Part shown: one piece after another, positions 5,927 to 51,357 of the stretch
Position numbering within the stretch: the first letter of the stretch is position 1
How the letters are laid out: each line of letters opens with the position of its first letter
Source of the DNA: Flavobacteriales bacterium
GTDB taxonomy: Bacteria > Bacteroidota > Bacteroidia > Flavobacteriales_C > GCA-002722245
NCBI GenBank assembly: GCA_023251095.1
Contig: JAHEZL010000023.1
Coordinates: 1 to 64,000, forward strand
Reading direction: 5' to 3'
DNA: 64,000 nt
Translations under genes and position numbers: made by a program
The notes under the pieces: generated by a model
The model's input: only the letters and a program-made list of their open reading frames with translations
Told to the model about the DNA's origin: nothing
The model's database searches: none

Positions 5927-6823
5927 ATGGATTGGAACAGCAGTATTAAAGGATTTAAAGCTTTTCTTCGTTTGGAGAAATCGCTGTCGCCCAATTCCAT
6001 TGAAGCTTATTTACACGATATTGAAAAGCTTCGTCAATTTTTGGATGCCCATCAATTATCCATTTCTCCGGCAGATATTAAATTAAATCACTTGCGTGAT
6101 TTTTTAAAATGGGCTACTGAACTAGGGATGAGTTTAAATACTCAGGCACGTGTAATTTCGGGAATAAAGGCCTTTTACAAATTTTTGGTCATGGAGCAAA
6201 TGATCAAGGAAAATCCGACCTTGATGCTGGAGGCTCCAAAGTTCGGCAGGAAATTACCCGACACATTAAATATTGATGACATTGACGCATTAATTGCAGC
6301 CATCGACCTTAGTAAAGCCGAAGGTCAGCGCAACAAAGCCATACTGGAAACCCTTTACAGTTGCGGATTGCGTGTAAGTGAGTTGGTAGGATTGAAAATT
6401 TCTGAAATGTACCTCAACGACGGATTTATAAAAGTTACAGGTAAAGGAAGCAAGGAAAGACTCGTCCCTATTGGCGGAAAAGCCTTGCGCGAAATTGCCT
6501 CTTATCACCAGGACAGGGTTCATTTGAACATTGCTCCCGAAGCAGTAGATATTTTATTTTTAAATCGCCGTGGAAAAAAATTAACCCGCGTGATGATCTT
6601 CACCATCATTAAACAACTGGCCAAAAAAATAAATCTTAAAAAAAGTATTTCTCCTCATACTTTCCGACATTCCTTCGCCACTCATTTAATTGAAGGCGGC
6701 GCTGATTTACGCGCAGTACAGGAAATGTTGGGACATGCATCTATTACAACTACAGAAATATATACTCACTTAGACAGGGATTATTTAAGATCAGCTATTA
6801 TTGATTTCCACCCGCGATCTTAG
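5927..6823 (+). CDS. xerD: Site-specific tyrosine recombinase XerC/XerD
   Basis: A tyrosine recombinase of the Xer type that resolves chromosome dimers at dif. An N-terminal SAM-like core-binding domain (residues about 5-90) precedes the catalytic domain. The catalytic residues are visible: R149 in CGLRVSEL, H244 and R247 in HTFRHSFATHL, H270 in MLGHASI, and nucleophile Y279 in TEIYTHLD. The 298-residue length and absence of adjoining phage or integron genes point to a housekeeping Xer. XerC versus XerD cannot be settled here, so the symbol is tentative. Its stop codon overlaps the stop of the convergent gene by four bases (6820-6823). Confidence 0.93.
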   Translation: MDWNSSIKGFKAFLRLEKSLSPNSIEAYLHDIEKLRQFLDAHQLSISPADIKLNHLRDFLKWATELGMSLNTQARVISGIKAFYKFLVMEQMIKENPTLMLEAPKFGRKLPDTLNIDDIDALIAAIDLSKAEGQRNKAILETLYSCGLRVSELVGLKISEMYLNDGFIKVTGKGSKERLVPIGGKALREIASYHQDRVHLNIAPEAVDILFLNRRGKKLTRVMIFTIIKQLAKKINLKKSISPHTFRHSFATHLIEGGADLRAVQEMLGHASITTTEIYTHLDRDYLRSAIIDFHPRS

Positions 6824-8730
6824 AATTCTGAATAATCAATCGATTTATCATCGTAATCGTTTGAACTGGTAAAAAACGAGAGGTTTATCATTCCGTACCA
6901 TCCCGACATTAAAGTCGCGGGTGAAGAGGCAATGATATTATTGCTGCGCCACTGAGGATCAGAAAAATCAAGTTGATAACCGGCTTTAAATCCGAGACTG
7001 ATAAATTTCATATTCACTCTTGAATCCACTTGTAACAATGCATTGAAAGCTCTGTTTTCATAAGTGGTATTCAAGGTTGTTCCAAACAATGCCGCTGCAT
7101 TTTGCGAGGCAATATTTTGCTGCAGTTTAAAAACACCATAACCCAATCCGCCCGAAGCAATCAAATCAAAAACTTTACTTTTAAAAAAATCTCTTCCCAA
7201 AAACATTTGAATAGAATATCCATCCAGATCCAACACATCACCATTGCTTAAATTTCTACTTTGTTTTAAGTAATAACGATAATCAAAACCAAAGCCCACT
7301 TTATCTCCCGACCACATTGTGCCCACGCCTATCATTGGTAAATAATTATTGAAACTAGGGAGAGGATCAATATGCGTTTGTATATAAGTATTAAGATTTA
7401 AAAAGTTCCCCGACAAGGCGCCATAGTTAATATCCAAATGAAAACGAATGTCTTCGTCATCATTGCTCATATCCGAAAAACCTGCTCTTCTCTCTAACTC
7501 TCTGGATTCTTTATCAGGATTCAATTTATTGATGATGACATACTGAAATTTACCCTTCATATCATTGTGAGCTGATGTATCACAAAAAACTTTGTAAGCC
7601 ACCATTGCATCATCTTTTGAATACGCTACCAATTCTTGCAAATAGTCGGATTCATGCGTTGGATTGGCAACAGCACTGAAACTTTTAGGATAGTAAGTCC
7701 CTATTGACAACACCTTATTTTTCAAAGCAGGATTGGAAGACGAATTGATGCGCTTTAGTAAGGATTTAAAATAATACAATCCGCACCATTCACTTTGCTC
7801 ATTCAAACTGGTATGACAGCGTCCGAAAGAACCGAAATATTTTTGATTCGGATTTTTTTTCACCAGATCTTCAAAACGCGAAAACATGTATTGTTCGCGG
7901 TAAACCCATTCCTGATACGCATTTTTATTTTGATATTCTTCCCACTGTTTATTGGCATTGATGCCCTCTGTTACCGTTTTAAAAACATCATAATTTTTAC
8001 CCAGATAAATTTTGTACAGAGAATCATTCTTTTTAAAATCTTCCAGAAAAATATCCAGCGTATTGTTGGTTGAAAAATATTGTGAATTTCTTTCAAAACT
8101 ATCGTCGCTGTCAAACAAAGAATCTTTTTGATATTCATCAAAATATTTATCCAGATAAGCACCCAATCCTCTTAAACTTTCAACATTCATCTGAAGTGCC
8201 GAAGGAACCTCTTTATCAGCGGGCAACAGTAAATTCAAATATTTTGCAGCAGCGGCTACCGAACGCTCCATATCAATACCCACCACAGAAATTTTATTGG
8301 CAGAATCCAGCGTTTCATTGAACTCTCTCAACTGCTCATAAAACTTTTGAAAGTCGATAAAAGCATAGTTTCTGAAAGAATGGTAATACGACGAATCTCC
8401 AGTTTGAATGTAATGATTCACCATCCACCCAATGCTCGGTCCGAACTCAAACAACAAGGTACGCACACCTGCTTTTTTATGCAGATACTTCAAAAATTTT
8501 ATTTGCAAACGCGTATTGCTTCTGCGATAAGAATGATCTTCACCGATAATGAAAATGGATTTCTGAGGAAGAAGGGAATCAAAAATGGCGAAGGAGGAAA
8601 AATCAGTGCTGTCGGATAAATTCAGTTCTGAATATTCACAAACAACACTATCTACAACTGTTTTCTCATTGCTTTGCGAAAACAAAAAAGCGGGAAATAC
8701 CAATAAAAGAAAAGAGAAAATTACTTTCAT
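6820..8730 (-). CDS. EreA/ChaN-like hydrolase domain fused to a putative outer-membrane beta-barrel
   Basis: The signal peptide is clear from the ATG at 8730 (MKVIFSFLLLVFPAFLFSQS); the frame extends three codons to a TTG at 8739, which I do not favour. Residues about 40-360 resemble the erythromycin-esterase/ChaN/TraB-like fold: IIGEDHS, LLFEFGPSIG, VVGIDMERS, and a later FGRCHTS. Residues about 420-630 change character to short alternating strands with glycines and aromatics (GFGFDYRYYL, IASGGLGYGVF, SLGFKAGYQLDF), as in a small beta-barrel or beta-sandwich. The substrate is unknown and antibiotic resistance should not be assumed. It is the last gene of a compact minus-strand operon. Confidence 0.7.
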   Translation of the reverse strand: MKVIFSFLLLVFPAFLFSQSNEKTVVDSVVCEYSELNLSDSTDFSSFAIFDSLLPQKSIFIIGEDHSYRRSNTRLQIKFLKYLHKKAGVRTLLFEFGPSIGWMVNHYIQTGDSSYYHSFRNYAFIDFQKFYEQLREFNETLDSANKISVVGIDMERSVAAAAKYLNLLLPADKEVPSALQMNVESLRGLGAYLDKYFDEYQKDSLFDSDDSFERNSQYFSTNNTLDIFLEDFKKNDSLYKIYLGKNYDVFKTVTEGINANKQWEEYQNKNAYQEWVYREQYMFSRFEDLVKKNPNQKYFGSFGRCHTSLNEQSEWCGLYYFKSLLKRINSSSNPALKNKVLSIGTYYPKSFSAVANPTHESDYLQELVAYSKDDAMVAYKVFCDTSAHNDMKGKFQYVIINKLNPDKESRELERRAGFSDMSNDDEDIRFHLDINYGALSGNFLNLNTYIQTHIDPLPSFNNYLPMIGVGTMWSGDKVGFGFDYRYYLKQSRNLSNGDVLDLDGYSIQMFLGRDFFKSKVFDLIASGGLGYGVFKLQQNIASQNAAALFGTTLNTTYENRAFNALLQVDSRVNMKFISLGFKAGYQLDFSDPQWRSNNIIASSPATLMSGWYGMINLSFFTSSNDYDDKSIDYSEF

Positions 8731-8748
8731 AAATACCAATCCGACTTA

Positions 8749-9261
8749 TTACTCTAAATAAATCACTTCTTTGTTTTTTTCTAAACTCACTCTGATATTT
8801 TCTTGTAAAGTTGTGGAAATAGACAAGCCTACATAATCCGCTTTTACCGGATAACGCGTATGATCTCTATCCACCAACACCACTGTTTGTATACGTTTCA
8901 CAGGTTTATTTAAAAAATGATTGACTGCATAAATAATTGTTTTGCCCGAATTGATCACATCATCCACCACCAAAATAACTTTGTTTTCATATTGCTCAGC
9001 CGTAACTCCTTCCAAAGTAATGGGCATAGCCAAAGGATTTTCTTTATCCATTTTTATTTTACTGAGAATGATTTTCAGTTTTGAAACTGCTCCCAATTCT
9101 TTTGCGATGCGCTCGGCAATTACATAACCATAGCCATCAATGCCAGCAATGATGATTTCTTTTTCGTCGAAAACATTTTCATGAATCTGGTGAATGAGTC
9201 GGTTTAGTTTTTGTAAAACCTTTTCTTTACTCAGTACTACCGTATTATTTTTTGTTGGCAT
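8749..9261 (-). CDS. PyrR-like phosphoribosyltransferase
   Basis: A type I phosphoribosyltransferase with the PRPP-binding motif VILVVDDVINSGKT near residues 95-108 and an upstream IIAGIDGYGYVIAERIA block that fits the PyrR/PRTase fold. At 170 residues it has typical length. The substrate base is not certain; uracil-type (PyrR-like) activity is the closest resemblance, but no pyr genes are nearby. Its ATG overlaps the end of the upstream channel gene by 17 bp, so the two are co-transcribed. Confidence 0.85.
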   Translation of the reverse strand: MPTKNNTVVLSKEKVLQKLNRLIHQIHENVFDEKEIIIAGIDGYGYVIAERIAKELGAVSKLKIILSKIKMDKENPLAMPITLEGVTAEQYENKVILVVDDVINSGKTIIYAVNHFLNKPVKRIQTVVLVDRDHTRYPVKADYVGLSISTTLQENIRVSLEKNKEVIYLE

Positions 9262-10213
9262 ATGCTACAAAGTTAAGTGGTGAATTTAATGAAACTTCCT
9301 CAAACTTGTCGATACCATCTATATTAAGGTATACAATGCCTCCCGGACGGTTTTCAATAGCACTTAAAAATTTGGCTCCCCATACAAATTCACTCACTCT
9401 GTAAGATCTTCTGTCGTAAACCACCTGAGAAAAGGACTCATCAAAAGCTTTCACCAAAATAATAATCTCTCCATCCTGATCGGCAAAATAGGATTTATCC
9501 TTTCCCCAAAACGGACTGGTTTCATCAATGGGATGCACAATAGTCCAGCTTAAAGGCATGAAATTAATTTTCTCTATTTCCAATGGCAACTTTGCATAAT
9601 CTCTTTTACCCGTCTCTTTGTTTAACCAAACCATATTCACACTCACTTCTATTTCAATGAGCTGATTATTTCTCATGTTCACCATGCGAAACATCATTCC
9701 GTTGGAGTCCTGATACGGCGCTATAATAGCCTGCTCGCTATACCTGATACGGGCCACAGGGCGCGAAAACCTGCCATACAAAACACCTGTAGCCATTGCA
9801 AATCCAAGTAAACCGATAAAAGCTTCAAAGGAGGCAATTATTTTTGCGTGTGTTCCAACCGGAGCAAAAAATCCGTAGCCTACGGTAGTCATGGTTTGCG
9901 TGCTGAAATAAAATGCATCCCAAAAATTAGCGGTGACATCTCCTTTATTAATTGAAGAAATTTGTTCCACGCCACAATAGAGGTATAACAAAGCAAACAA
10001 AGCATTGGCAACGAAAAACAAAACCGAAATCAAAATGGCAAACTGCCACCACTTAATTGTTATTAATGAGTGGTATATGTCGGATACATTGAAAGAAGAA
10101 ACCCCTTTTCTTTTTACATTAAAAGTCCCGTCAGAATTGATTAATCGTGAACCTTTATTGTAAGATTTTTCACCAAATCCAAGATCACTTTTGTTTCTGC
10201 TAAACACTTTCAT
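9245..10213 (-). CDS. Inward-rectifier (Kir-type) potassium channel
   Basis: A KirBac-like channel for K+ across the inner membrane. The first transmembrane helix is at about residues 56-80 (FAILISVLFFVANALFALLY). The pore loop carries the selectivity filter TVGYG at residues 110-114, followed by the second helix (SFEAFIGLLGFAMATGVLYGRF). The cytoplasmic C-terminal half is the immunoglobulin-like Kir domain (RIRYSEQAII, RMVNMRNNQLIE, WTIVHPIDETSP). The 322-residue length matches the family. It sits 9 bp downstream of aroK. Confidence 0.95.
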   Translation of the reverse strand: MKVFSRNKSDLGFGEKSYNKGSRLINSDGTFNVKRKGVSSFNVSDIYHSLITIKWWQFAILISVLFFVANALFALLYLYCGVEQISSINKGDVTANFWDAFYFSTQTMTTVGYGFFAPVGTHAKIIASFEAFIGLLGFAMATGVLYGRFSRPVARIRYSEQAIIAPYQDSNGMMFRMVNMRNNQLIEIEVSVNMVWLNKETGKRDYAKLPLEIEKINFMPLSWTIVHPIDETSPFWGKDKSYFADQDGEIIILVKAFDESFSQVVYDRRSYRVSEFVWGAKFLSAIENRPGGIVYLNIDGIDKFEEVSLNSPLNFVAYANKK

Positions 10214-11340: not shown

Positions 11341-11468
11341 CAATATTTTAAGAGGTTCAAATAAGTGTTTTATCATTGTAAATCAATTACTTATATTCAC
11401 GTCCGCCTCCATTCCGACTTGATTTTTCATAGACAATTGGATTTCGCGATTTGTAAGGCCTTACTTTG
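11341..11468 (+). promoter_or_regulatory. Shared-architecture promoter, site A
   Basis: Elements in order: CAATATTT at 11341; AATCAATTACTTA at 11381-11393; CTTGATTTTTCA at 11419-11430; GACAATTGG at 11432-11440; a 20-bp spacer; TTACTTTG (-7) at 11461-11468. The same elements recur at the same distances upstream of seven other transcription units. Transcription would start about 65 bp before the ATG at 11539. Confidence 0.8.
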
Positions 11469-11538
11469 ACTTATCTGAGAATATCAGAACAAATGAAACT
11501 TCTAATTTCTTATTATGTTAAACTTAAAAATTAAACCA

Positions 11539-12627
11539 ATGAAAAAATTACTACTATGCGGAAGCGCACTTTTCTTAATGCTTGGTTCAGCCAACGCTCA
11601 AGGATGGAACACAAAAGGTGCTTCAGATGATTTTAAAACTACCGATAACTATGTTAACGGACCGAACAATGAAGGTGTTTATTGGTGGGTTACTGATACC
11701 AATGCAATGAAAATTTCTCGTCCAGGTACTGGAACAATGACCCTTACTGCCACTAATTTAGGAGCTTGTAGTTCTTGCTTCCCTCAACTTGGGGTGGATT
11801 TTGGAACGGTAAACGGCAATCCAGTTACTCTTGACCTTACTACCGGAGCAGATATTTATTTAGAGGTTGAAAACACAGTAAATTCCAGAATCTTTGCAAC
11901 TGTTCTTTTGACTGACATCAATGATAAAGTTTCGAAAATAGAACCAAATGTTTCAGATGTAACTTCAAATGTAACTTGGGGAACTGCAGGTAACCCTCGT
12001 AAATCTCAAAATGGTTTTTCATTTGGCGATTATGTTGACTCAATTCCAACAGAAACTGCTAAAGGAAAGAAAAAAATCTTTATCGACTTGTCTTCTGTAC
12101 CAAGTGCTATGGGAGGATTAACTGATGATGCTTGGACTTGCTCAACCCCATACAATTGCCCTACAACTTCATATGCTATTGATGTTACTAAAATTAAAGC
12201 CGTAGCGTTTATGATAAATTTTGGTGTTAACAATGTTTTCGTAAGTGAAGGAAATGGTACAGATGCTCATAAAGAGGATACTTATATTCAAGGAAAATTC
12301 CTTAAACCTTACACAGGTGCATTAAAATTCACAACTTTCGTTATTGGTGAATCAACAAATGGTGTAGGTATAAATGAAAACTTAGTAACTAAGTCTTTAA
12401 ATGTATATCCTAATCCTGCTAGTGACGCTGTAAACGTTACATTTGAATCTAATAGCATTGCAACTGTATCTATTACTGATTTATTTGGTCGTACAGTATA
12501 CACAAACTCTGCAAACGCAGGTAAAAACAACATTTCTATCAATACTTCAAACCTTTCAACAGGTATGTACCTTGTGAATGTAACTTCTTCAAACGGAAGT
12601 GTATCCAGCAAAATAACTATTAAGTAA
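11539..12627 (+). CDS. T9SS type A secreted beta-sandwich protein, first gene of five-gene operon
   Basis: The start is MKKLLL at 11539, which begins a clean signal peptide ending SANAQ; an in-frame ATG at 11515 only adds a polar tail. The 362-residue protein has a central region (about 25-255) that looks like a galactose-binding-type beta-sandwich (WWVTDTNAMKISRPG, GADIYLEVENTVNSRIFATV, KIKAVAFMINFG). The last 75 residues are a T9SS type A sorting domain (LNVYPNPASDAVNV, ...LSTGMYLVNVTS...KITIK). It should be secreted or surface-anchored and may bind a carbohydrate; no catalytic motif was recognised. It is followed by a stable hairpin that may leave it better expressed than the genes behind it. 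Confidence 0.85.
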   Translation: MKKLLLCGSALFLMLGSANAQGWNTKGASDDFKTTDNYVNGPNNEGVYWWVTDTNAMKISRPGTGTMTLTATNLGACSSCFPQLGVDFGTVNGNPVTLDLTTGADIYLEVENTVNSRIFATVLLTDINDKVSKIEPNVSDVTSNVTWGTAGNPRKSQNGFSFGDYVDSIPTETAKGKKKIFIDLSSVPSAMGGLTDDAWTCSTPYNCPTTSYAIDVTKIKAVAFMINFGVNNVFVSEGNGTDAHKEDTYIQGKFLKPYTGALKFTTFVIGESTNGVGINENLVTKSLNVYPNPASDAVNVTFESNSIATVSITDLFGRTVYTNSANAGKNNISINTSNLSTGMYLVNVTSSNGSVSSKITIK

Positions 12628-12650
12628 TCCAATTATTTAAGGAACTAATT

Positions 12651-12682
12651 GAGCCGGTTTTGAAACCAATCAAAACCGGCTC
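12651..12682 (+). terminator. Intra-operon hairpin (attenuator or 3' stabiliser)
   Basis: GAGCCGGTTTTG at 12651-12662 pairs perfectly with CAAAACCGGCTC at 12671-12682 (12 bp, 8-nt loop). Only a weak CTTATT follows, so read-through into the outer-membrane genes is likely. Confidence 0.6.
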
Positions 12683-12705
12683 TTATTAACCCTAAACCAA
12701 AAAAG

Positions 12706-14913
12706 ATGATAGCATTGAAAAAACATATTGTACTTCTTTTGTTTGGGCTGTTGATGTTCCCTGCTCTGATCTTTGCAACAGGAAACAAAGATTCACTCAG
12801 CCTTTACCAGTCCTCTGTATATTTACCGCAGACCTCTTTATTAATAAAAAAACAAATCAAGACTAGCTCTTTTGCAAGCTTGTCGAACAACACCACCAAA
12901 AGTTCAAAAAAGCTTTGGTTTAAATCCATGCGTTATTCCGGGTACGCAAGATTTTATCCTTATTACCGGAACATGAAAAACAATAACGTCACCGCTTCAA
13001 ATGTAAACGGACTTACAGTGCCCATCACTCTTAATGCAGATGATGGTTACCAACAACCTTTAATGTTATTCCGACTGGAAGGAAATCCTACAGCGAAAAC
13101 ATCTTTTCAAACAGAATTACAATTCAGCAGTCTCTTTAACAGAACAACCCCATTAACAGATGCCAACGGAAAGCTGGCAAATTTATACGTGATATTTAAA
13201 TTAGAAGGAGCTGTAGATACTAAAATAGGCCATATCAGAGTAATTGCCGGAGGTGGTGCCAACTGGTACCGATTGAGTCCGTCAACACTTTGGGGCTACC
13301 AATACCGCGATGATCTTTTCGAAAGATATCCATGGGACCCTGAAGGTTATGATTTTAACAACCGCTACAATTCAGCCTACTCAACAGGTGACATACCGCG
13401 TGACCAACGTTTTGGAATGCAGGCCACTCAGGGTTTTATCCTCGAAGGCACAAAAATGCCGGCAGGTTTTGATGCAGCTTTCCTCTACGGTAAAGTTTCA
13501 ACAGGGGCAGGTTTTACAAGCTTTGCGAGTCAAACCCCGCTCAACATGATGGCCACCAGAATAGGAAAATCATTTGGATTGCATAAAGTAGGCTTTAACT
13601 ATTTTGATCAATTGGGATATCAGGGATTTTACGATAAAAATAACGTGTTGCAAAACAACACTGTGAATTACAAAAAAGTGGTGCGCTCGGGAACCGACAG
13701 TGTTTATGTGGAAGACAATTATGTTAGTCAACTGGTTACTTCAATCGATGCTCGCTTTGAATTCAAAAAATTCAGCCTCTTCACTGAGCTTGGCGGAGGA
13801 TCTTACCTCAGCAACAACTACAATGACAATAAAAAAGTTGAAAATGTTTTGGGCTTACCCAACGTTACTCACTACAAAAGGCAATGGGGAGAAACCATGT
13901 TTTTAGAAATCACTACTAAAAAACAACTCACACGTATTCCTTTAAAATTAGGCTTATACAGAATCAGCGGTCGCGTTGTAAATAACGCAGGATCTGTTTC
14001 CAATACTTCTGTAGAAGAGGTAAAACCAAGTATTGATACCGACCCGAGTTACTACACCAATTACTATGACGGTATGATTACCGACGTGGGACAATTGGCA
14101 AACAACCGACAAGGATTGAATCTTTTTGCTTCTAAAAACATTCAAAAATTAGTAGTGAAATTCGATATGGGCATCGCTCAGGAAATAATTAATCTGGCAG
14201 GTGATTTAAGAAATGGTGCACGCGTAAAAGCAATGCCGGGAACCAATGCCGATATTGCTACAAGAGAACCTTTCACCAATAGTATAACTTTTGAGCACAA
14301 ACTCAATGCATTGACCATGTCGAGATTTGCTCCTTACCAAAGATTCACCGGTGCTTACGGCCGCAATCACTCTATTTTCAGAAGAACATTTGAAAACATT
14401 GCGATCACCGACACCATCGTGAATTACAATAAATCATTCAACACCATCGACCTTGAATTAAAATACAAATTCCGCATCATGGGCAAGGAACTTATCATGA
14501 CCAACTACAACAATTACAGTTCGGTTCAGGATCAATGGTCGATCATTCCGGTATTCAGCGACAAAGCTTTCGTGAGATATTTTTACACCGAACTAATGGC
14601 CTTTTACGGTATTCATCCTAAAGTAACAGCACTTGCTTTTGGCGGTATGGAAAGAGTGCTGGGCAACAACAGAACCGAATTGGCTGATGCCAATGGTAAA
14701 TTACTTACAAATGCTGCAGGAAGACCTATTAGTGGTAACGGCAAAGCTACAGATCAAACAAGCTATGGTTATGGTGTAGGTGTAGATTACAATTTCCACG
14801 GTCGCGCAAGCATACACTGGAGGGGTCGTTGGTTTTCACATTCCGACAAAAATTTTACACTCGATCAATACCACGGTTTTGAATCAACAATGGAATTTAA
14901 AGTATTCTTTTAA
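12706..14913 (+). CDS. Putative outer-membrane beta-barrel protein (735 aa)
   Basis: A signal peptide is present (MIALKKHIVLLLFGLLMFPALIFA). The rest is rich in alternating aromatic/polar strands typical of an outer-membrane barrel: YSGYARFYPYYRN, LFTELGGGSYLSN, LGLYRISGRVV, and a C-terminal strand ending FESTMEFKVFF with the terminal aromatic. It is not a TonB receptor: no plug domain or TonB box is apparent. It is followed after 11 bp by a second barrel-like gene. The likely roles are pore, receptor or anchor for the operon's secreted and lipid-anchored partners. I do not recognise a named family. Confidence 0.65.
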   Translation: MIALKKHIVLLLFGLLMFPALIFATGNKDSLSLYQSSVYLPQTSLLIKKQIKTSSFASLSNNTTKSSKKLWFKSMRYSGYARFYPYYRNMKNNNVTASNVNGLTVPITLNADDGYQQPLMLFRLEGNPTAKTSFQTELQFSSLFNRTTPLTDANGKLANLYVIFKLEGAVDTKIGHIRVIAGGGANWYRLSPSTLWGYQYRDDLFERYPWDPEGYDFNNRYNSAYSTGDIPRDQRFGMQATQGFILEGTKMPAGFDAAFLYGKVSTGAGFTSFASQTPLNMMATRIGKSFGLHKVGFNYFDQLGYQGFYDKNNVLQNNTVNYKKVVRSGTDSVYVEDNYVSQLVTSIDARFEFKKFSLFTELGGGSYLSNNYNDNKKVENVLGLPNVTHYKRQWGETMFLEITTKKQLTRIPLKLGLYRISGRVVNNAGSVSNTSVEEVKPSIDTDPSYYTNYYDGMITDVGQLANNRQGLNLFASKNIQKLVVKFDMGIAQEIINLAGDLRNGARVKAMPGTNADIATREPFTNSITFEHKLNALTMSRFAPYQRFTGAYGRNHSIFRRTFENIAITDTIVNYNKSFNTIDLELKYKFRIMGKELIMTNYNNYSSVQDQWSIIPVFSDKAFVRYFYTELMAFYGIHPKVTALAFGGMERVLGNNRTELADANGKLLTNAAGRPISGNGKATDQTSYGYGVGVDYNFHGRASIHWRGRWFSHSDKNFTLDQYHGFESTMEFKVFF

Positions 14914-14924
14914 ATACAAGAAAA

Positions 14925-16649
14925 ATGGCTAGAAAAATAAGATTTACACTTATCATCGTTTGTGCTTTTCTGTTTACAGAATTGTCGGCGCAAACTGTAT
15001 ATTTCACCGGACTCGGGCGTGCCCTTGTTACCAACGGCAATCTGTCGGATCAAAGCAATACTGCTTCCCGACTCAAATCTTCGGGAGGTTATACCTTATT
15101 TGATCTTGGTATTTATGCCAAACCAAATGAAGTATTAAGAGGTGGCGTTATCCTGAGAACAAAAAATGCTTTTGGCGGCTTCTTTGGAAATGGCGCATCG
15201 TTGTCGTTCCGTCAAATACAGATGGAAGGTTTGATTGCCAAAAAATTAAAGTATGAATTGGGAGACGTTTATTTGAGTCACACTCCCTACACTTTGTGGA
15301 ACGCGGATTCTGCCGATTTCAAATATGAAGCAGGAGTTTTCAGTATGAGAAGAGACATCATCAACTACGAAAACTTTTTTGTAGGAAATTCATGGAGAAT
15401 GCAAGGCTTCAACACAAAAGCCAAAATAAATTTCACCAAAGGAGTTGAAAGTTTAGGCATCAGAATATATGGCGGACGAACGAGAGAAACCAATTACACT
15501 ACTATTCCCGACAGATATTTTTACGGCGGACGACTGGATCTTTTGCAAAGCAAATATTTCAAAATTGCAGGAAACCTTGCTGCCATCAATGATATCGCAG
15601 GTACAGTAAAAAATGCTCAGGTGAATTACAACAACATGGTGTACACTTCGGATTTTGCCGTGACACTGGACAAAAGCGAAAAATTTAAATTTGTAGTGAA
15701 CGGTGAAGCCGGTGCATCTCAGCTTGAATTGCAAAGAGCATCGGATTCTACCGACAGTAAATTCAATGATTTCTTTTACGATTTAGGAGCTAAGGCCACT
15801 TACAAACCATGGAACCTTAATGTTGGCGGCTCATACCGCAACGTAGGTTTTAACTTCAACAGTCCGATGGCACAATCGCGCAGAATGGCTGCTCCTTCTG
15901 ATATTACCTTGAGTAATTTCTCTAAACTGAATGATGCTGCAACAGCTCGCCCCGTTTCATTGTTTGATCCTTTAACTCAGGAAAACAATATTTACAACCA
16001 GGGAATTTCCACCACTTTGATGAATTACTTTATTCAGTACAACATAGTGGAGCCTTACGGAAAAGCTACTCCTAACCGACAAGGCTTTACCTTCAGTGCA
16101 GATTTACAAGATGCAAAAAAAATAATCACTGCCGATGTTCAGGTAAATCTTTTATCGGAAGTGGTATCCGAAGGAGACACTTTAACCCACGCAAAAAGAA
16201 ACTTCACTTTAATTCGCGGAGGTTTTGTATTTAATTTACACAACCTCATCAACTTCAAAAAAGTGATTGCAATCAATGGTGGTATCAGAAGAGAAAGCTC
16301 AGTACGCGGAGGTACGAATGCGGTGAATCTTTCAAGTACTTTGATTGACGCAGGATTGGATGTGGAAGTGATAAAAAGCTTACACTTATTGGGTGGCGTA
16401 AAATTATTCTCTGTGAGCGGTAACGAAATACAAAGCTCACGAAACAGCGTTAATCAGCTGGTTGCATTTACACCTGTGAGCTTCAATCAAACACAAAGCA
16501 TTATTGCTGCCGGAGCGCGTTATGATTATGATAAAGCCGGTTGTTTTTTCAGCGTACATTATCATATGGTGAATTACAATGATAAGCTGATCACAACAAA
16601 TCAATACAACCTGAATCAGTTGTTTTTTGTTTTCGGATTGAAGTTTTAA
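14925..16649 (+). CDS. Second putative outer-membrane beta-barrel protein (574 aa)
   Basis: The signal peptide runs MARKIRFTLIIVCAFLFTELSAQ. The body shows many amphipathic strands (FGGFFGNGASLSFRQIQMEG, KYELGDVYLSH, LNVGGSYRNVGFNFNS, ARYDYDKAGCFFSVHYHMVNY) and a C-terminal strand LNQLFFVFGLKF ending in an aromatic-basic-aromatic pattern. It starts 11 bp after the preceding barrel gene, so the two are probably made together and may form one complex. No enzymatic motif is seen and the family is not recognised. Confidence 0.65.
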   Translation: MARKIRFTLIIVCAFLFTELSAQTVYFTGLGRALVTNGNLSDQSNTASRLKSSGGYTLFDLGIYAKPNEVLRGGVILRTKNAFGGFFGNGASLSFRQIQMEGLIAKKLKYELGDVYLSHTPYTLWNADSADFKYEAGVFSMRRDIINYENFFVGNSWRMQGFNTKAKINFTKGVESLGIRIYGGRTRETNYTTIPDRYFYGGRLDLLQSKYFKIAGNLAAINDIAGTVKNAQVNYNNMVYTSDFAVTLDKSEKFKFVVNGEAGASQLELQRASDSTDSKFNDFFYDLGAKATYKPWNLNVGGSYRNVGFNFNSPMAQSRRMAAPSDITLSNFSKLNDAATARPVSLFDPLTQENNIYNQGISTTLMNYFIQYNIVEPYGKATPNRQGFTFSADLQDAKKIITADVQVNLLSEVVSEGDTLTHAKRNFTLIRGGFVFNLHNLINFKKVIAINGGIRRESSVRGGTNAVNLSSTLIDAGLDVEVIKSLHLLGGVKLFSVSGNEIQSSRNSVNQLVAFTPVSFNQTQSIIAAGARYDYDKAGCFFSVHYHMVNYNDKLITTNQYNLNQLFFVFGLKF

Positions 16650-16666
16650 AATAAAAGGGAAAGATT

Positions 16667-17719
16667 ATGAAGGCATTATTCAAGTTTTCTGTTTTATTGA
16701 TTCTCCTTGCCGGATGCAAGAGAGACAAAGTGGATTTTATCGGTCCGGCTTATATTTCCGCGCCTTCAGGCTTTGAGGTAATGAGCTTTACCAGTTCTCT
16801 TTCATCTGTTGATTTTACGGTTGACAGTGTATTTTTGAATGCAACTTTTAGTCACGAAGTTACCTGGAAATTAACCATTACCGGAAAGAAATCCGGCGCT
16901 GTAGAAGAAATAAGTGGAACATCAAAGGGCTTCAGTAATTTAAAATGGAACGGCTGTCATACCGGCGTATATTTTTTCAAAACCGATGAAAACGCTATTG
17001 CTACTTTATCCTTCTTTGGTACCGATTTAAAGCCATCCTTAAACATTAATATTCTAGCAGAGCGAGATTTTTCAACCTATGGTCAATTTCCTTTCTTTGG
17101 TGATTTTGAAAATGAAGCAGGCATACAACAAAATAGTATCTGGTACGCATTTAGTAATCCTATTACTCCAATTCCAAATGTAAAACAGGGAGTTGATTCA
17201 ATAGCGATAGATTACAATGGTAATTTAGTGCCTACTGTTCAGGGTAAAAATTATTACTTTATTAAAGGAAAAGGAGATCAGCCAGCTTTTGTGAGTGGGA
17301 TTAGATATGATAAAGCCCAAAAATTGATTAGCCCTGTTTTAACTGCTACTCCCGACAACATATGGGTAAATGTATATATTTATGGAACAGGTGACGCAAA
17401 TGCATCTGTAGAAATTGAATATCAGGAGGCACATATGAATGGGCCGGTACCAGTATATGATCAAGAAATAGATGATGCCTTTGTTGCCTATGTAACGCTC
17501 AGTCATAAAGGCTGGAAGCTTTTCAGTTTTAAATACAGTGACCTCACTCCCAGCTTAAATGCTAAATTTGGAGGAAGTGGCAATAAAATTCACGAACCTC
17601 AATTACTTAAAGCTTTCGATTTGATTTTAGTGAAAAAATCAAACCCTGATTCACCGGTTGAGTTATATTTTGACTATCCAATCATTACTGTAGGCGGACC
17701 TTTTAACCCCTCTAAATAA
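16667..17719 (+). CDS. Lipoprotein (350 aa), operon A
   Basis: The lipobox LAGC puts the lipidated cysteine at residue 17. The following residues, KRDKVD, include charges resembling a Bacteroidota surface-export signal, so exposure on the cell surface is possible but not proven. The mature part looks all-beta. Residues about 25-125 contain ITGKKSG and WNGCHTGVYFF, like an extracellular beta-sandwich; residues about 140-340 (FFGDFENEAG...YYFIKGKGDQPAF...DIWVNVYIYG) look like a carbohydrate-binding jelly roll. No catalytic residues were recognised. Confidence 0.7.
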   Translation: MKALFKFSVLLILLAGCKRDKVDFIGPAYISAPSGFEVMSFTSSLSSVDFTVDSVFLNATFSHEVTWKLTITGKKSGAVEEISGTSKGFSNLKWNGCHTGVYFFKTDENAIATLSFFGTDLKPSLNINILAERDFSTYGQFPFFGDFENEAGIQQNSIWYAFSNPITPIPNVKQGVDSIAIDYNGNLVPTVQGKNYYFIKGKGDQPAFVSGIRYDKAQKLISPVLTATPDNIWVNVYIYGTGDANASVEIEYQEAHMNGPVPVYDQEIDDAFVAYVTLSHKGWKLFSFKYSDLTPSLNAKFGGSGNKIHEPQLLKAFDLILVKKSNPDSPVELYFDYPIITVGGPFNPSK

Positions 17720-17725
17720 AATAGA

Positions 17726-18385
17726 ATGAAAAAAGGAACTATATATTTAATCGCTTGTATCACTTTCCTATACTCATGTGCAGGAACTATGCAAACCTAC
17801 GACCTCAATGAAGAGTACGCTAGAACTTTGCACTACGAAGAAATGGCGGCCGGAGAAAATAAAGCGGAAAGCGGTGAAGAAAAAAGTGATTTGGTTGGTG
17901 TGCCTGCGCTTAATTTTTATGGAGGAGATTTGAAACGAGGCGGTATATGGTGGAGCGGTAAAGGCATTACTTTAGAAAAAGGAGATGTTTTTACTTTTGA
18001 TGCTGAAAATGTTGGTCCCGACAGTATTCCTTTTGGAGCTACCTTCCCTCCTCTTGATTTATTGAAAGCAAAAGTTTTGGTTAAAATAAGTGCCCGTGCC
18101 GAAGGAAAAGATGGCGCTGTACCTGTTCTTTATTTACAAGTTGATGATGCCAGCGGTTACAAAGCCGACGCCAAAAGACCTTCACAAAAAATTGAAAATT
18201 CAGCCGACTTTAAAGATTACTATTTCGACTTAAAAGACATCTTTGTTCAAAGCGTACCGAAACACTCGGTTAATGGAGCAATGATTAATAGCTTGAAGTT
18301 TTTTATCAATCCTGGACAAACAGCCTTTACCGGACAAATTTACATCCGCGAAATTAAACTTGTTCCGGTTCCTGAAGGGAAGTAA
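17726..18385 (+). CDS. Lipoprotein (219 aa), last gene of operon A
   Basis: The signal peptide ends in the lipobox LYSC, with the cysteine at residue 18. No charged export signal follows it, so the periplasmic face is more likely. Residues about 60-215 form a beta-sandwich-like region (LNFYGGDLKRGGIWWSGKGI, AKVLVKISARAEG, DFKDYYFDLKDIF, IYIREIKLVPV) that resembles carbohydrate-binding/galactose-binding folds and the core of the first protein of the operon. It begins 6 bp after the previous stop, and a terminator follows. Confidence 0.7.
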   Translation: MKKGTIYLIACITFLYSCAGTMQTYDLNEEYARTLHYEEMAAGENKAESGEEKSDLVGVPALNFYGGDLKRGGIWWSGKGITLEKGDVFTFDAENVGPDSIPFGATFPPLDLLKAKVLVKISARAEGKDGAVPVLYLQVDDASGYKADAKRPSQKIENSADFKDYYFDLKDIFVQSVPKHSVNGAMINSLKFFINPGQTAFTGQIYIREIKLVPVPEGK

Positions 18386-18678: not shown

Positions 18679-18804
18679 CTATATTTTTCAATACTTAAAA
18701 TTATATTTAACACTGTAAATCAATGACTTAAATTAATATTCTCTTATTTTCATTGATATTATAAATTGACAAATAGCTTCTCGGTTGACAATCGTCTTAA
18801 TTTG
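18679..18804 (+). promoter_or_regulatory. Shared-architecture promoter, site B
   Basis: CTATATTT at 18679; AATCAATGACTTA at 18718-18730; GACAAATAG at 18768-18776; a 20-bp spacer; TTAATTTG at 18797-18804. It precedes the GH97 / large surface protein / GH13 operon. It shares the extra block ATTTTCATTGATATTA with orphan site C. Confidence 0.8.
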
Positions 18805-18941
18805 TATCAGTACGCTATTCTTGAAAGATTTATAACACGTTAAAACTAAAACATATGAAATGTTCAAGCACCGAAATTTTGATCGCTAAAAAAGATAGCA
18901 TGAACATAACATATGACCTTAAAAAATTAAAACCGAAACAT

Positions 18942-21050
18942 ATGAAAGCAAATTTTGAAGGCACTCGTGGGAAAGGATTAAAAGCAATTTCTCTGATTTT
19001 ATTCCTTGTGATTTTAAACGCATGTCAAACAAAGAATTTTGCTGTTGTCATCAACAGCATCTCTTCTCCGGGAAAGATAAATACCATTGAATTCTTTTTG
19101 GATGAAAACGGTACACCACGTTATTTAGTTAAACACGGAAATAAAACAGTTATCGACAGCTCAAGTATGAGCTTTGATTTCAAAGGACAAGATCCTATGA
19201 ACGCAGGTTTTGTAATCAAAAATACTTCTGAAAAAGATTTCAATGAAACCTGGGAAATGCCTTGGGGCGAGCAACGCAATGTAGTTAACAAGTACAAAGA
19301 ACTGATGGTAGAACTGGAAGAAGCTTCCGGCGCTAAACGCCCGTTGAATATCTACTTCCGCGCCTATGACGATGGTATCGCGTTTCGTTATGAATTCCCG
19401 AAACAAGCCGGAGTTGACTCTCTTACTATACTAGATGAAAATACTGAATTCCAATTGACAGGTGACCATACCTGCTGGTGGAATCCGGGCGACTGGGACA
19501 GTTCAGAGCATTTATACTACACCGACAGCTTATCGAAAATTGATGCTTTAGAGTTGAAGAAAAATGAATTGGCAAATAGTCATATCGTTGACAACTCTGT
19601 ACTTACTCCTTTAACAATGCGTACAAAAGAAGGTGTGCACATTGCCTTCCACGAAGCAAATCTTACTGATTATGCAGGTATGACGCTTAAACTTGGCGGT
19701 GATAACTTTTTGCTTACAAGTGAGCTCGTAGGTTCCGATCGTTTAGGATACAAAGCAAAATGTGCTTTGCCTTTCGTAACGCCTTGGAGAACCATTCAAA
19801 TTGCCGACAAAGCAACTCAATTGTTGGAATCTCGCTTAATTGAAAACTTAAACGAAAGAAATAAAATTGGTGATGTAAGTTATTTCGCTCCTAAAAAATA
19901 TGTAGGCATCTGGTGGGAAATGCACATCGGTAAATCAACCTGGGATTTAGCCAGCGGAAAACACGGCGCAACTACAGAGAATGCAAAAAAATACATCGAC
20001 TTTGCCGCAGCAAACGGATTGAAAGGGATTTTGGTAGAAGGATGGAACACCGGCTGGGAGCACTGGATAGGCTTTGAAGACAGAGAAGGTGTATTTGATT
20101 TTGTGACTCCTTATCCTGATTATGATTTGAAAGAAGTAGTGCGCTACGGTAAAGAAAAAGGAGTTGAATTAATTATGCACAATGAAACTTCTGCTGCGCC
20201 ACGTACTTACGACAAACAAATGGACACTGCTTATAAAATGATGCATCAGTTGGGCATTCATTCTGTGAAAACCGGTTATGTTGGTCCAATTATTCCGAAA
20301 GGAGAATACCACGATGGCCAATGGATGGTGAATCATTACCAAAGAGTAGTTGAAAAAGGTGCCCAATACCAAGTGGCTATTGATGTACATGAGCCAATTA
20401 AACCAACAGGTTTAAGAAGAACTTATCCAAACCTTGTTGCAGCAGAAGGTGCAAGAGGTCAGGAATTCAACGCCTGGTCGAACGACGGCGGAAATCCTCC
20501 TGAACATTTACCAATTTTAGCTTTCACAAGAATGCTGGCCGGACCAATGGATTTTACTCCGGGGATTTTTGAAATCTCTTTGCCATCAAAACCGCACAAC
20601 CAAATCAACACTACTTTGGCGCAACAACTGGCTTTGTATGTGGTGATTTACAGTCCGGTGCAAATGGCTGCAGATTTACCTGAAAACTACAAAGGTCAGC
20701 CTGCTTTCCAATTCATTAAAGATGTTGGAGTGGATTGGGAACAAACAGTGGTGTTGAACGGAGAAGTTGGAGATTTTGTCTCCATCGCAAGAGAAGAACG
20801 CGAAACAGGAAATTGGTTTGTTGGCGGTATCACCGATGAAAACCAAAGAGAAATCACTATCGATTTTTCTTTCCTTAAAGACGGAAAAAAATATGAGGCA
20901 GTAATTTATCAGGATGGAAAAAAAGCACACTACAAAAGAAATCCAACCGATATCGAAATTGTAAAAGTGACCATCGACAAAAACACAAAGCAAACTTTAA
21001 AACTGGCTGAAGGCGGTGGATTTGCCATCAGTTTAAAGTTGATAAAGTAA
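18942..21050 (+). CDS. GH97 alpha-glucosidase, inverting (SusB-like) lipoprotein
   Basis: GH97 hydrolyses alpha-glucosides; the Bacteroides SusB member is periplasmic. The signal peptide from the ATG at 18942 ends in the lipobox LNAC. The frame is open from earlier ATGs at 18855 and 18900, but those add a long polar leader. Family landmarks are GIWWEMHIGKSTW, HNETSAAP, VKTGYVG, DVHEPIKPTGLRRTYPN, EGARGQEFNAW and MLAGPMDFTPG. The glycine in VKTGYVG, where retaining members carry an aspartate nucleophile, together with the glutamates in HEPIKPTG and AAEGARG, fits the inverting GH97a subtype. The residues after the lipid cysteine (QTKNF) lack an export signal, so a periplasmic site is likely. 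Confidence 0.93.
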   Translation: MKANFEGTRGKGLKAISLILFLVILNACQTKNFAVVINSISSPGKINTIEFFLDENGTPRYLVKHGNKTVIDSSSMSFDFKGQDPMNAGFVIKNTSEKDFNETWEMPWGEQRNVVNKYKELMVELEEASGAKRPLNIYFRAYDDGIAFRYEFPKQAGVDSLTILDENTEFQLTGDHTCWWNPGDWDSSEHLYYTDSLSKIDALELKKNELANSHIVDNSVLTPLTMRTKEGVHIAFHEANLTDYAGMTLKLGGDNFLLTSELVGSDRLGYKAKCALPFVTPWRTIQIADKATQLLESRLIENLNERNKIGDVSYFAPKKYVGIWWEMHIGKSTWDLASGKHGATTENAKKYIDFAAANGLKGILVEGWNTGWEHWIGFEDREGVFDFVTPYPDYDLKEVVRYGKEKGVELIMHNETSAAPRTYDKQMDTAYKMMHQLGIHSVKTGYVGPIIPKGEYHDGQWMVNHYQRVVEKGAQYQVAIDVHEPIKPTGLRRTYPNLVAAEGARGQEFNAWSNDGGNPPEHLPILAFTRMLAGPMDFTPGIFEISLPSKPHNQINTTLAQQLALYVVIYSPVQMAADLPENYKGQPAFQFIKDVGVDWEQTVVLNGEVGDFVSIAREERETGNWFVGGITDENQREITIDFSFLKDGKKYEAVIYQDGKKAHYKRNPTDIEIVKVTIDKNTKQTLKLAEGGGFAISLKLIK

Positions 21051-21174: not shown

Positions 21175-24100
21175 ATGATTTTACATAATTCTAAAAAGCT
21201 TTTATTCACTATTGTTGCTGCGCTGCTAACGCTTTACAGCTTTGCTGCCAACATTACTTCTACAGCAGGTGGCGGGAACTGGAACAGTGCTGCTACGTGG
21301 GTGGGAGGAGTTATTCCGGGAGCTGCCGACAATGTTACTATTGCCGGAAATGTTACTGTAAATGCCAACGCTTCAGCTACCAACATTACCATTAGTACAG
21401 GAGCAACGCTTACATGTAGCAATGCGGGATTGAGTGTAGCCGGCAACTGGACTAACAATGGAACATTCAATGGTTCTCCAACCGGACAAAACGGTAACAC
21501 CAATGAAAAAGTAACTTTCACCGGAGCAGGCACCACCATTGGCGGCTCAGCTGTTTCTCATTTTTGTAATCTTACAATCAATCCGGGTGCAGGAGGCACA
21601 GTAACCATCACTTCTACTGCTATTGATTTCGGTCCGGCGCAATTTTCAAATTCAGTAATTACATTACAAAGCGGAACTTTAGATGTTGGTGCAGGACACT
21701 CCATCAACTCCGTATCTCAACAAGGTGGTTCAATAGTGAGCACTGGAGGTGATTTTAAATCTTACGGACCAACGGGTTGGAATTTAAATCTGTCAGCTGC
21801 TTTTGGCGCTACTTTCAACACTACAGGAACCGTTAGTTTAGATAACGTTATCGGATTGGGAACAAGCGGAAATTTCGGTTACTCTCTTCAAAACAATACT
21901 TCCGGCGGACTCCATCTCAACGGATTATACAGCGTTAAAGGAGCGCAATCGCAAAACTGGGCCATTAAAAACAATGCGCCAATTTGGGGGCCTGCTTCTA
22001 CTTTATACAGAGACAACGACAATCAAGGATTTAACATTGGAAACAATGGCGATTTATCATGGACGGCCAACACCGGAACTATTGGTGTAACGCCGGGATT
22101 TCCCAACAATGTGACTTTAGTAAACATGGGCAGCTCGGTATTTAACAATACAGGATGGCACCCAACAGGAGCCATTGGATTGAACGGAGCTTTGCATATC
22201 GGTGATCCTACAACCAACGGACGAATTACTCTGGAAGATGTAACCAGCTTTACTTCGGGAGGTTTGATCATCGACAACAACTCTTTAATCATCGGACCGA
22301 AAACAGGAATTCCATTTACCGATAAAGGTGATTTCACATTGACAGGCGGAACAACAGGTATTTTTCAAACCTCGGGAGCCACTATTAATTTTGCAGGATC
22401 GGGAACCTCAGGATCTCCGCAGGTGATCAGCACTACAGGCTCTTCTGTAGTTTTTGGCAACATGTCGGTAACTAACGGAACCTATGTTCAATTGCAGGAT
22501 CCCGTGAGCGTTACGGGGACTTTGAATTTAACTTCAGGATACATTGGTACAACTTCAACCAATTTATTAACGATAAGCAATACTGCTACTTCGGCCATTA
22601 ATGGCGGTGGTACAACTGCTTATGTGGACGGACCTTTAGCTTGGTCGGTTCCGGCAACAACTTCAGGAAATTATATTTTCCCTATTGGTAATGGAGGAAA
22701 ATATCTTCCCTTGACTTTAGCCCCGAATTCTACTTCTGGAACAACTGTTACGGCAACGGCCTTCAATCAAAATTCAAATGGTACTCCGGATAAAACAGTA
22801 ACCTCTATCAGTCAAACTGAATACTGGTCGGTAACTACTTCCAGTCCGTTTACAAGCGGTCCGTTAGTAAGCGTTGCCCGTCCGAATGCAGTAGCACCTG
22901 ATAACGCTTTAGCAGTGAGTTCAACTTCCAATGGAGTATATACCGCAATTGGCGGCACAGCAGGCGGAAATACCATTAGTGGCGGAGGAATTGGCACAGG
23001 CAGTCCGGCTTTTGTTACTATGGTTTTAGCTCCTTTATCCATTGTTAAACTAAGCGGCACCAATGTAACCTGTAATGGTACTACCGGTTCATTAACAGTG
23101 GGCGGAAGCGGCGGTACTCCAGCTTATCAATACAGCATTAACGGAGGAGCTTTTCAGGCATCCAACACCTTCAGTCCTTTAGCACCCGGAAATCATACCG
23201 TAAACGTGAAAGACAATACGGGAACAATAGCCACAGATACTTTAAAAGTGTTGGGTTCCATCGTGATCAACGGCAACGATAAAGATGTTTCTATTTGTTC
23301 GGGCTCTTCCACTACCTTAACTGCTGCTAACTTACAAAACACCACGCCGGTTTATTCATGGTCGACTAGTTTAAGTGGAACTCCTGTAATAGGGACCAAT
23401 GCAGCTTTAACGGTATCGCCTACCACCACTACAAAATATTATGTTACCAGTAAATTGTACAACAATAATAAATTGGTGAACGGAAGTTTTGAATCGGGAA
23501 ATACCGGATTCACTTCCACCTACACCAACTATACCGGAGCTCAATACGCCACTACACCGGGCAATAACGGCTATTACAAAATTTCAAATTCAGGAATTAA
23601 TCTTTGTCAGTATTTCAGTATCACAGGTGCGCCGAATCAAACCAGTTTAACTCCACAAAATGGCGGTCAGTATTTTATTGGCGACGGAGCAACTACAAGT
23701 TCCAAAGTATGGGAACAAACGGTAAGCGGATTAACAGCAGGCGAAGTATATAAATTTCAATTTTATTACGCAGCGGGAAATCCTGATGCAACGAGAGCAG
23801 TGTTGCGTCCAACCATCAATGGTGGCGCTACTTTGGGAGATGTTACCACCACCAATGCCGGGGCATGGACTCAGGCTACTTATACCTGGACAGCTACAGG
23901 AACTTCGGCTACAGTAGCCATCACCGATATGACTTCTTCAGGAAGCACAAACGGTAACGACTTCTATCTGGACAACATGGAATTTCTTGCTCCTTGTACA
24001 GTGACTGATTCTATCAGAGTAATTGTATCTACCGCAACACCCGGTACAGTATCGGCCAATCAAACTATTTGTGTTGGTGCAACACCGGCTTCTCTTACCT

Positions 24101-29341: not shown

Positions 29342-29992
29342 ATGGGAAGTAGGGAATATGAATTATACCGAAGGACATCAGAGGTGTACGCTAAAAATGG
29401 AATTAAAAATACCACTATGGCCGATATGGCTAGTAAATTAAAAATTTCTAAAAAAACATTGTACAAATTTGTCAATGACCGACCAGAACTGGTTTCCAAT
29501 TCAATGACATGGAAATTAGCACACGACACAAAAATTGTCAACGACATTATCGGCAAGAATTTAAATGCTGTTGCCGAATTATATGAAATCAGCAATTTTT
29601 ATTGCAGTAACCTGATGGGTATTCATCCTTCTATTTATTTGGATCTGGAGAAATATTACCCCAATGCATGGAACCAGTTTACTGAATACAAAAACATATT
29701 TATATACAACATCATGTTCTCAAACATGAAAAAGGGCATAATAGAAGGATTGTACAGAGATGATTTTGATGTGGAAGTGATTGTTAGATTGTATACTTCA
29801 AAAGTAGACATGGTTTTTGATCCAAGGATTTTTCCAGTAGAAAAATTTAAATTTTCAGAAGTATATCTGGAAATGGTAAACTACCATCTTGCAGGTATTG
29901 TTAGTGAGGAAGGAATGAAGGAAATCCATCATCTAACTGAAGAAGTTGTGCCTCGACACGAAAATGAGTTAATTGCTGAGTTCGCTTATTAG
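29342..29992 (+). CDS. TetR-family transcriptional regulator
   Basis: The N-terminal 60 residues match the TetR DNA-binding domain: VYAKNGIKNTTMADMASKLKISKKTLYKFVNDRPELV, with the recognition helix around KKTLYKFV (residues 37-44). The remaining 150 residues are helical ligand-binding type (YPNAWNQFTEYKNIF). It follows the amylase gene by 68 bp on the same strand, so it may be the distal gene of the GH97/GH13 operon. It is one of two candidates for the factor that reads the shared promoter elements; the inducer is unknown. It ends 16 bp from the convergent next gene. Confidence 0.88.
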   Translation: MGSREYELYRRTSEVYAKNGIKNTTMADMASKLKISKKTLYKFVNDRPELVSNSMTWKLAHDTKIVNDIIGKNLNAVAELYEISNFYCSNLMGIHPSIYLDLEKYYPNAWNQFTEYKNIFIYNIMFSNMKKGIIEGLYRDDFDVEVIVRLYTSKVDMVFDPRIFPVEKFKFSEVYLEMVNYHLAGIVSEEGMKEIHHLTEEVVPRHENELIAEFAY

Positions 29993-45564: not shown

Positions 45565-45595
45565 TTAATTATGGTTTGGGGGTTAGTACTAGGTT

Positions 45596-47542: not shown

Positions 47543-47629
47543 ATAAATGTTTGGGGGTTTATATAAACTCTCGATGTAATAAATGTCTTTTTACATAAGC
47601 AAAATTTTAAAATGAATTATCTAATGATT

Positions 47630-49378: not shown

Positions 49379-49411
49379 GTGTAGATAATTTAATTTTAAT
49401 AGTCGCCTAGC

Positions 49412-51148: not shown

Positions 51149-51229
51149 AATTTCTTTATTTAATGGGTTTTGAATCATTAAGTGTATTCGTTTTAATCAA
51201 AAGTGTTAATCGTTCACATTTCATTTACT

Positions 51230-51357
51230 CAAATAAACATTTTACTTAACACTAAATCCAATTGTCCCTGAAAAATCAAGACGAAACACAAAACCACAAA
51301 TCATTAAGTATTTGATTATCAAACTACAAATAGGCTTAAATAGATTCATAAATATGG
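51230..51357 (-). promoter_or_regulatory. Shared-architecture promoter, site E
   Basis: Minus-strand elements: CCATATTT (51357-51350); AATCAAATACTTA (51317-51305) inside the near-palindrome GTTTGATAATCAAAT; CTTGATTTTTCA (51280-51269); GACAATTGG (51266-51258); a 20-bp spacer; TTTATTTG (51237-51230). It serves the GH87 operon. I see nothing in 51358-51590 between this and site C. Confidence 0.8.

Follow-up and report, generated by a model that had tools for sequence, protein, structure and literature searches.

A five-gene operon related to the Cytophaga hutchinsonii cellulose cluster lies among alpha-glucan enzymes in a Flavobacteriales genome

The stretch of DNA analysed here (the window; 64,000 nucleotides of a Flavobacteriales bacterium, GenBank assembly GCA_023251095.1, contig JAHEZL010000023.1, positions 1 to 64,000) carries at positions 11539-18385 a five-gene operon, g1-A-B-C-D, which by homology is an alpha-glucan-linked relative of the cellulose cluster of Cytophaga hutchinsonii. 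Our favoured reading, which we consider probable, is that the operon specifies a TonB-independent outer-membrane complex for the capture and import of alpha-glucan oligosaccharides, replacing SusC/SusD, the pair regarded as the hallmark of Bacteroidota glycan uptake and searched for in the prediction of polysaccharide utilization loci (PULs). In this reading we infer the barrel fold of A and B, the formation of a complex, transport together with its energetics, and the substrate.

The cluster chu_1276-chu_1280 of C. hutchinsonii is an atypical PUL that is essential for cellulose use and comprises two outer-membrane proteins, CHU_1278, the 375-aa CHU_1279 with two domains resembling carbohydrate-binding modules (CBM-like domains) and an endoglucanase (PMC12016534), the last being a glycoside hydrolase of family GH9 (PMC6247017); outer-membrane location and a requirement for polysaccharide use are therewith on record for homologues of the window proteins (PMC12016534). 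We took locus L099 to be chu_1276-1280 because its D protein, likewise of 375 residues, has W89, F92, F180, Y253, F256 and F343 at the exact positions of the published CHU_1279 mutations and because its D gene lies between C and GH9, and L099 served as the reference for all identities to CHU_1276-1279. On this basis, A (735 aa; 12706-14913) is homologous to CHU_1276 (37% identity, E=7e-148), B (574 aa; 14925-16649) to CHU_1277 (40%, E=7e-140), C (16667-17719) to CHU_1278 (30%, E=2e-37) and the single-domain D (17726-18385) to either CBM-like domain of CHU_1279 (35%, E=6e-23, and 34%, E=3e-20), all four genes being on the + strand. The first-pass annotation of the window had allowed that the two large proteins might turn out to belong to a known unrelated family; they proved instead to be homologues of CHU_1276 and CHU_1277. 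No GH9 endoglucanase is found as last gene of the window locus, the GH9 version being a separate locus of the same genome, and the presence of GH97, GH13 and GH87 genes in place of GH9 assigns the operon to the same family of systems and not to the cellulose system itself.

All five open reading frames (ORFs) that had been proposed as an operon are present on the + strand of the window, and their common strand and short intergenic gaps (78, 11, 17 and 6 bp for g1-A, A-B, B-C and C-D) make a single transcription unit likely; the gap from D to the downstream GH97 gene is 469 bp. The first gene, g1 (11539-12627, +), encodes a beta-sandwich protein and probable surface glycan-binding protein whose secretion by the type IX secretion system (T9SS), claimed in the first-pass annotation, is borne out by a sorting domain (PF18962, E=4e-19). 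Its reading frame opens at 11515, and 11539 is its second ATG; the latter is the better start, since the signal peptide MKKLLLCG begins there and it agrees with the start of the orthologue in L030, a locus of the same genus. Counterparts of g1 occur at the same position in L030 (53% identity) and beside locus L111 of a different order (36%).

C and D each have a lipobox cysteine, in agreement with the two lipoproteins expected at these places, and their relatives point to glycan binding: CBM30 matches were obtained for 18 of 23 D homologues and weak CBM_11 matches for 4 of 29 C homologues, and relatives of D also match CBM9 and the domains of SGBP_B in Pfam. The window D has no Pfam match of its own, and at the positions of Y253, F256 and F343 of CHU_1279 it has Ser, Phe and Phe. 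The earlier suggestion that the first and the last protein of the operon are related folds is moderately supported, with an hhalign probability of 85% (E=6e-6, 64 columns) between g1 and D.

No noteworthy match in Pfam, NCBIfam or PDB was obtained for A and B themselves, and no Pfam or NCBIfam family covers any of the window proteins A-D. A comparison of the A and B profiles nevertheless returned a probability of 98.5% (E=4e-15, 481 aligned columns) against 0.3-10% for control pairs of A or B with C, D and the TonB-dependent transporters of the same genome; these low controls indicate that the signal is generic neither to barrels nor to the method, and on the strength of the profiles A and B are distant paralogues of each other, unrelated to TonB transporters. 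A TonB plug was not found in the window A and B or, by Pfam, in 30 homologues of each, and the weak Pfam matches among these homologues fall mostly to barrel families (OMP_b-brl, OmpA_membrane, BBP2), alongside stray DUF matches, so that the two adjacent plugless barrels postulated in the first-pass annotation stand as putative ones. Together with a C-terminal Phe in A, these matches weakly suggest a barrel fold. A match of the B profile to OprF (E=4e-4) was set aside when a deeper profile gave 0.09, and autocorrelation of hydrophobicity was dropped as a barrel test, since it failed to tell barrels apart from other proteins rich in beta structure.

The arrangement of the genes is conserved to a degree that goes well beyond the window. 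The order A-B-C recurs in the approximately 95 loci inspected, and in the loci from the window's order, the class sample and the phylum sample B is preceded by A in 65 of 66 cases and followed by C in 66 of 67, the sole exception for A being L019, a GC-rich locus in which overlapping long ORFs were chosen by the ORF caller. D is usually fourth; chitin-type loci have a second C-like lipoprotein at that place and some GH3-type loci have no D. Loci of the Cytophaga-containing order keep the order as well, except for fragments truncated by the end of a contig and for L120, in which C was not called. Conservation of gene order in relatives had been set beforehand as a test of the operon, and A-B-C(-D) is near-universal in the loci inspected, spanning several orders and at least one other class of the phylum. 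The system was detected in 10 of 10 genomes of the window's order, in 48 of 395 genomes of the class sample (those ten included), in 6 of 396 of the phylum sample, four of which lie outside the class, and in 26 of 391 genomes of the Cytophaga-containing order; no relative was found in the plasmid and viral collections.

Within the genome of the window, four more homologues were found for A and four for B, in adjacent pairs throughout, and the resulting five A-B loci lie beside enzymes for different glycans: beyond the operon discussed here, L014 (contig C30) adjoins GH9, L015 and L017 (contigs C3 and C2), which are each other's close relatives, adjoin GH16 and GH3, and L016 (contig C39) adjoins GH18 and a NagB-like protein. 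The same association can be followed across the phylogeny of B, in which enzyme labels (GH9 for cellulose, GH18 for chitin, GH16/GH3 for beta-glucan, sulfatases, and GH13 with GH97 and/or GH87 for alpha-glucan) were assigned by profiles built on annotated neighbours, with Pfam confirmation of the families for representatives. In a tree of 81 loci, 11 changes of enzyme label are required as compared to 37.2 with shuffled labels; the alpha-, cellulose- and chitin-type loci each fall on one side of a branch, with support of 100, 98 and 100, and a bootstrapped tree of 67 loci gives the same picture. By these trees, the phylogeny of B tracks the linked enzymes and not the species. The alpha clade unites the window, L030 (GH97 and GH13), and L111 and L114 from a different order; the contigs of the latter two carry GH87 as well as GH13 and a T9SS protein of the adhesin/G8 type, with a DUF6377 protein in addition in L111, so that the vicinity of GH87 or GH13 for which the first-pass annotation had advised looking in other Bacteroidota is seen in a second order. 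It might still be argued that A and B are general porins of an ordinary kind, standing beside glycan genes by chance, and that C, D and g1 have no specific role; the weak matches to OmpA, OMP_b-brl and BBP2 models would suit such a view. Yet the A-B-C order, which is strict in several orders and also beyond the class, and a phylogeny that follows enzymes rather than species, render this the least probable of the explanations that we have weighed and, in our judgment, a highly improbable one.

Several further features of these loci deserve to be recorded. The GH97 gene of L030 (4179-6361) is split into two ORFs, by a frameshift or an assembly error. In the cellulose clade, L100, L104 and L105 (Sporocytophaga-like and related) have GH3 in place of the C. 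hutchinsonii GH9, and their CHU_1279-type proteins are longer or duplicated. Several sulfatases flank A-B-C-D in L018 (4308-10182; a Flavobacteriales genome) and L045 (6659-12554), which suggests a version of the system for sulfated glycans. Regulatory genes lie beside beta-glucan-type loci in L064 (14113-14853), L069 (12546-15425) and L058 (3517-4260), encoding respectively an extracytoplasmic function (ECF) sigma factor, a Reg_prop/LuxR protein and a NUDIX-NrtR protein; the first case recalls the published ECF control of chu_1276.

As regards the established route of glycan uptake, the SusD models PF14322 and PF07980 find no match in the window's own genome, and the SusC model TIGR04056 finds there only TonB-dependent relatives below the cutoff. 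PF07980 is present in 0 of 10 genomes of the window's order, two of which are only 74-77% complete, as against 34 of the 42 other genomes carrying the A-B system; the system therefore coexists with SusD elsewhere and stands alone only in the window's order. The first-pass annotation had proposed a binding and transport complex that replaces SusC/D, and this proposal is supported by the need for the homologous cluster in cellulose use and by the lack of SusD in the order, transport being the part that we infer.

It is the mutant data from C. hutchinsonii, in combination with the missing plug, that lead us to favour a TonB-independent capture and import complex. Mutants in chu_1276 and chu_1279 grow poorly on 0.1% glucose (PMC12016534), and CHU_1277 is described in PMC5553014 as taking part in the assimilation of cellooligosaccharides, with citation of Ji et al. 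2014, and as a porin. Were the interpretation correct, degradation would start at the cell surface, where T9SS-secreted GH87 and GH13 enzymes and adhesins cut alpha-1,3/alpha-1,4-glucan whose chains g1, D and C keep close to the membrane. The two paralogous barrels, A and B, paired and probably complexed with C and D, would admit oligosaccharides to the periplasm without a TonB plug, and GH97 would complete their breakdown to glucose.

A number of observations nonetheless weigh against this interpretation. The barrel fold rests on weak Pfam/PDB matches, the terminal Phe, a low cysteine content and the published prediction for CHU_1276; the predicted models of A and B, built on two-sequence alignments, reached a predicted local distance difference test (pLDDT) score of 27-28 and were left unused for fold searches; and the substrate is deduced from the neighbouring enzymes only. 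In addition, poorly binding CHU_1279 variants still work even though chu_1279 itself is required (PMC12016534), and loss of CHU_1276/1277 lowers cell-associated beta-glucosidase activity (PMC5553014), two results that a scaffold fits as well as a channel does. The main competing explanation is accordingly that A and B are not channels but serve in the outer membrane as a scaffold on which surface enzymes, adhesins and binding proteins are anchored or displayed, with oligosaccharides entering by other porins or TonB-dependent transporters, and it draws further strength from a locus rich in T9SS cargo and adhesins and from a genome in which other TonB-dependent transporters are available. We nevertheless consider it unlikely, inasmuch as enzyme display by itself would hardly account for the poor growth of chu_1276 and chu_1279 mutants when free glucose is low (PMC12016534), the system is duplicated for each substrate in an order without SusD, and in several relatives a gene that on reading of the sequence is a candidate for a membrane transporter lies directly before A.

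A different role has been contemplated as well, namely that the operon serves chiefly in sensing the substrate and, by signalling across the outer membrane, in controlling the locus. The control of chu_1276 by an ECF sigma factor (PMC12016534) and the ECF sigma gene or Reg_prop/Y_Y_Y regulator that adjoins the beta-glucan-type loci tested would be in keeping with sensing, but neither an N-terminal signalling domain nor a TonB plug was found in A or B, the two proteins are always paired, and the neighbouring regulators vary from locus to locus, all of which makes this role very improbable.

The link to alpha-glucan derives from the genes that follow and share upstream elements with the operon. 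A probable lipoprotein of family GH97 (18855-21050, +; Pfam 1e-103), whose true start is probably internal, is of the SusB alpha-glucosidase type, scoring 601 bits against SusB versus 208-211 bits against alpha-galactosidases. It is followed on the + strand by a 2075-aa T9SS (CHU_C) repeat adhesin-like protein (21175-27402), the N-terminal part of which is conserved in L111 and L114, and by a GH13 alpha-amylase with a T9SS sorting domain (27408-29273; PF00128, 7e-106), whose best solved relative is alpha-amylase A. The 2075-aa protein was also considered as an enzyme, and this was rejected, as it yielded only the CHU_C domain and an Ig-like match below the cutoff. Four tandem GH87 alpha-1,3-glucanases (43186-51178, -) match both PF22815 and PF22816 in four out of four cases, and two of the four have recognisable T9SS tails. 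Judging from these enzymes, the target is plausibly a fungal cell-wall glucan or another alpha-1,3/1,4-glucan. Between the GH13 and GH87 genes lie a TetR-like helix-turn-helix regulator under the Pfam cutoff (29342-29992, +), a G8-domain T9SS protein (30009-32330, -) with a similar protein in L111, a GH43/CBM6/pectate-lyase-like T9SS protein, possibly accessory (32824-38025, +), and a DUF6377 protein (38202-39809, +) that is 49% identical to its counterpart in the L111 locus.

The promoter-like region of the operon (11377-11444, +) consists of TGTAAATCAATTACTTA plus CTTGATTTTTCATAGACAATTGGATTT, elements that it has in common with other promoter regions of the window: the first recurs in the promoter region of GH97 (0.1 expected by chance) and the second in those belonging to an adhesin gene and to the GH87 operon (0 expected). 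The sequence CTTGATTTTTCANNGACAATTGGATTT ends 71 bp 5' of the ATG at 11515 and is found also 5' of the GH87 operon, of the adhesin gene and, in L030, of the orthologous operon, with zero matches in shuffled sequence, which supports the shared promoter asserted in the first-pass annotation. The element TGTAAATCAATNACTTANATT is common to the operon and the GH97 promoter region, where the shared element lies at 18714-18734 (+); both elements occur in the promoter-like region of the GH87 operon (51254-51321, -) and 5' of the CHU_C adhesin gene at 55326-59297 (59397-59464, -). The element TGNAAATCAANNACTTAAA has 9 matches in the window as compared to 2.8 expected, with further copies at 51303, 51632, 59446 and 59810, some of them in divergent pairs, 5' of the GH87 operon and large adhesin genes. 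The exact Bacteroidetes consensus TTTG-N18-21-TANNTTTG was not found 5' of g1. Taken as sequence patterns, the shared elements are consistent with one regulon.

Elsewhere in the window, a Kir-type inward-rectifier potassium channel gene (9245-10213, -; PF17655, 4e-20) and a gene for an erythromycin-esterase-like protein (6820-8739, -; PF05139, 6e-10) were noted, and a large ORF (60035-64000, +) leaves the window at its end; 85-aa antisense ORFs occur in it every 264 bp, an even spacing that points to a tandem repeat of approximately 88 residues.

These findings do not describe a categorically new system, as its core is homologous to one already described; what appears to be new, as far as our search of the open-access literature could tell, is the alpha-glucan variant, the breadth of the family and its tracking of substrates, the paralogy of A and B, and the order devoid of SusD. 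The C. hutchinsonii cluster, the described exception to uptake by SusC/SusD, had been reported from no more than that species and two close relatives; it is hereby placed within a wider family whose members differ in their enzymes according to the polysaccharide. A bolder generalization, which we put forward tentatively and hold to be possible rather than probable, is that the two proteins A and B together constitute a TonB-independent importer, built of paired barrels, for large oligosaccharides; such an importer would be a general alternative to SusC/SusD in Bacteroidota, adapted to beta-glucan, cellulose, chitin, sulfated glycan and alpha-glucan, and the sole dedicated glycan importer of a whole order. 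If the transport role holds true, surveys based on SusC/D would miss such loci, and the natural variants would offer comparisons on the long-standing question of cellulose uptake in C. hutchinsonii; the alpha-glucan version is attractive for tests, soluble substrates such as maltooligosaccharides and nigerooligosaccharides being available.

Among known systems, the closest is chu_1276-1280, with which the window shares the A-D genes in corresponding order, the lack of SusC/SusD and the presence of neighbouring glycoside hydrolases; it differs in having GH97, GH13 and four GH87 genes instead of GH9, an extra T9SS-secreted sandwich protein before A, and a D protein with one binding domain, not two, and with Ser in place of the aromatic Y253. 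The Sus-type PULs of Bacteroides likewise combine a SusB-type GH97 and a secreted GH13 with outer-membrane and lipoprotein parts for glycan capture, and the co-location of GH97, GH13 and GH87 with the operon, together with their shared upstream elements, is a trait of SusC/SusD PULs; the window, however, has neither a TonB-dependent SusC nor SusD but two putative barrels unrelated to SusC, and its surface enzymes carry T9SS signals. The D homologues resemble the surface glycan-binding proteins of type B (SGBP-B) in being CBM-like lipoproteins, some of which match SGBP_B_XBD, whereas the window D is single-domain and outside the Pfam families. Finally, OmpA/OmpL-type barrels and porins share with A and B the absence of a plug and weak profile matches in a few homologues, but A and B, for which there is no family-level match, are always paired paralogues accompanied by the lipoprotein C.
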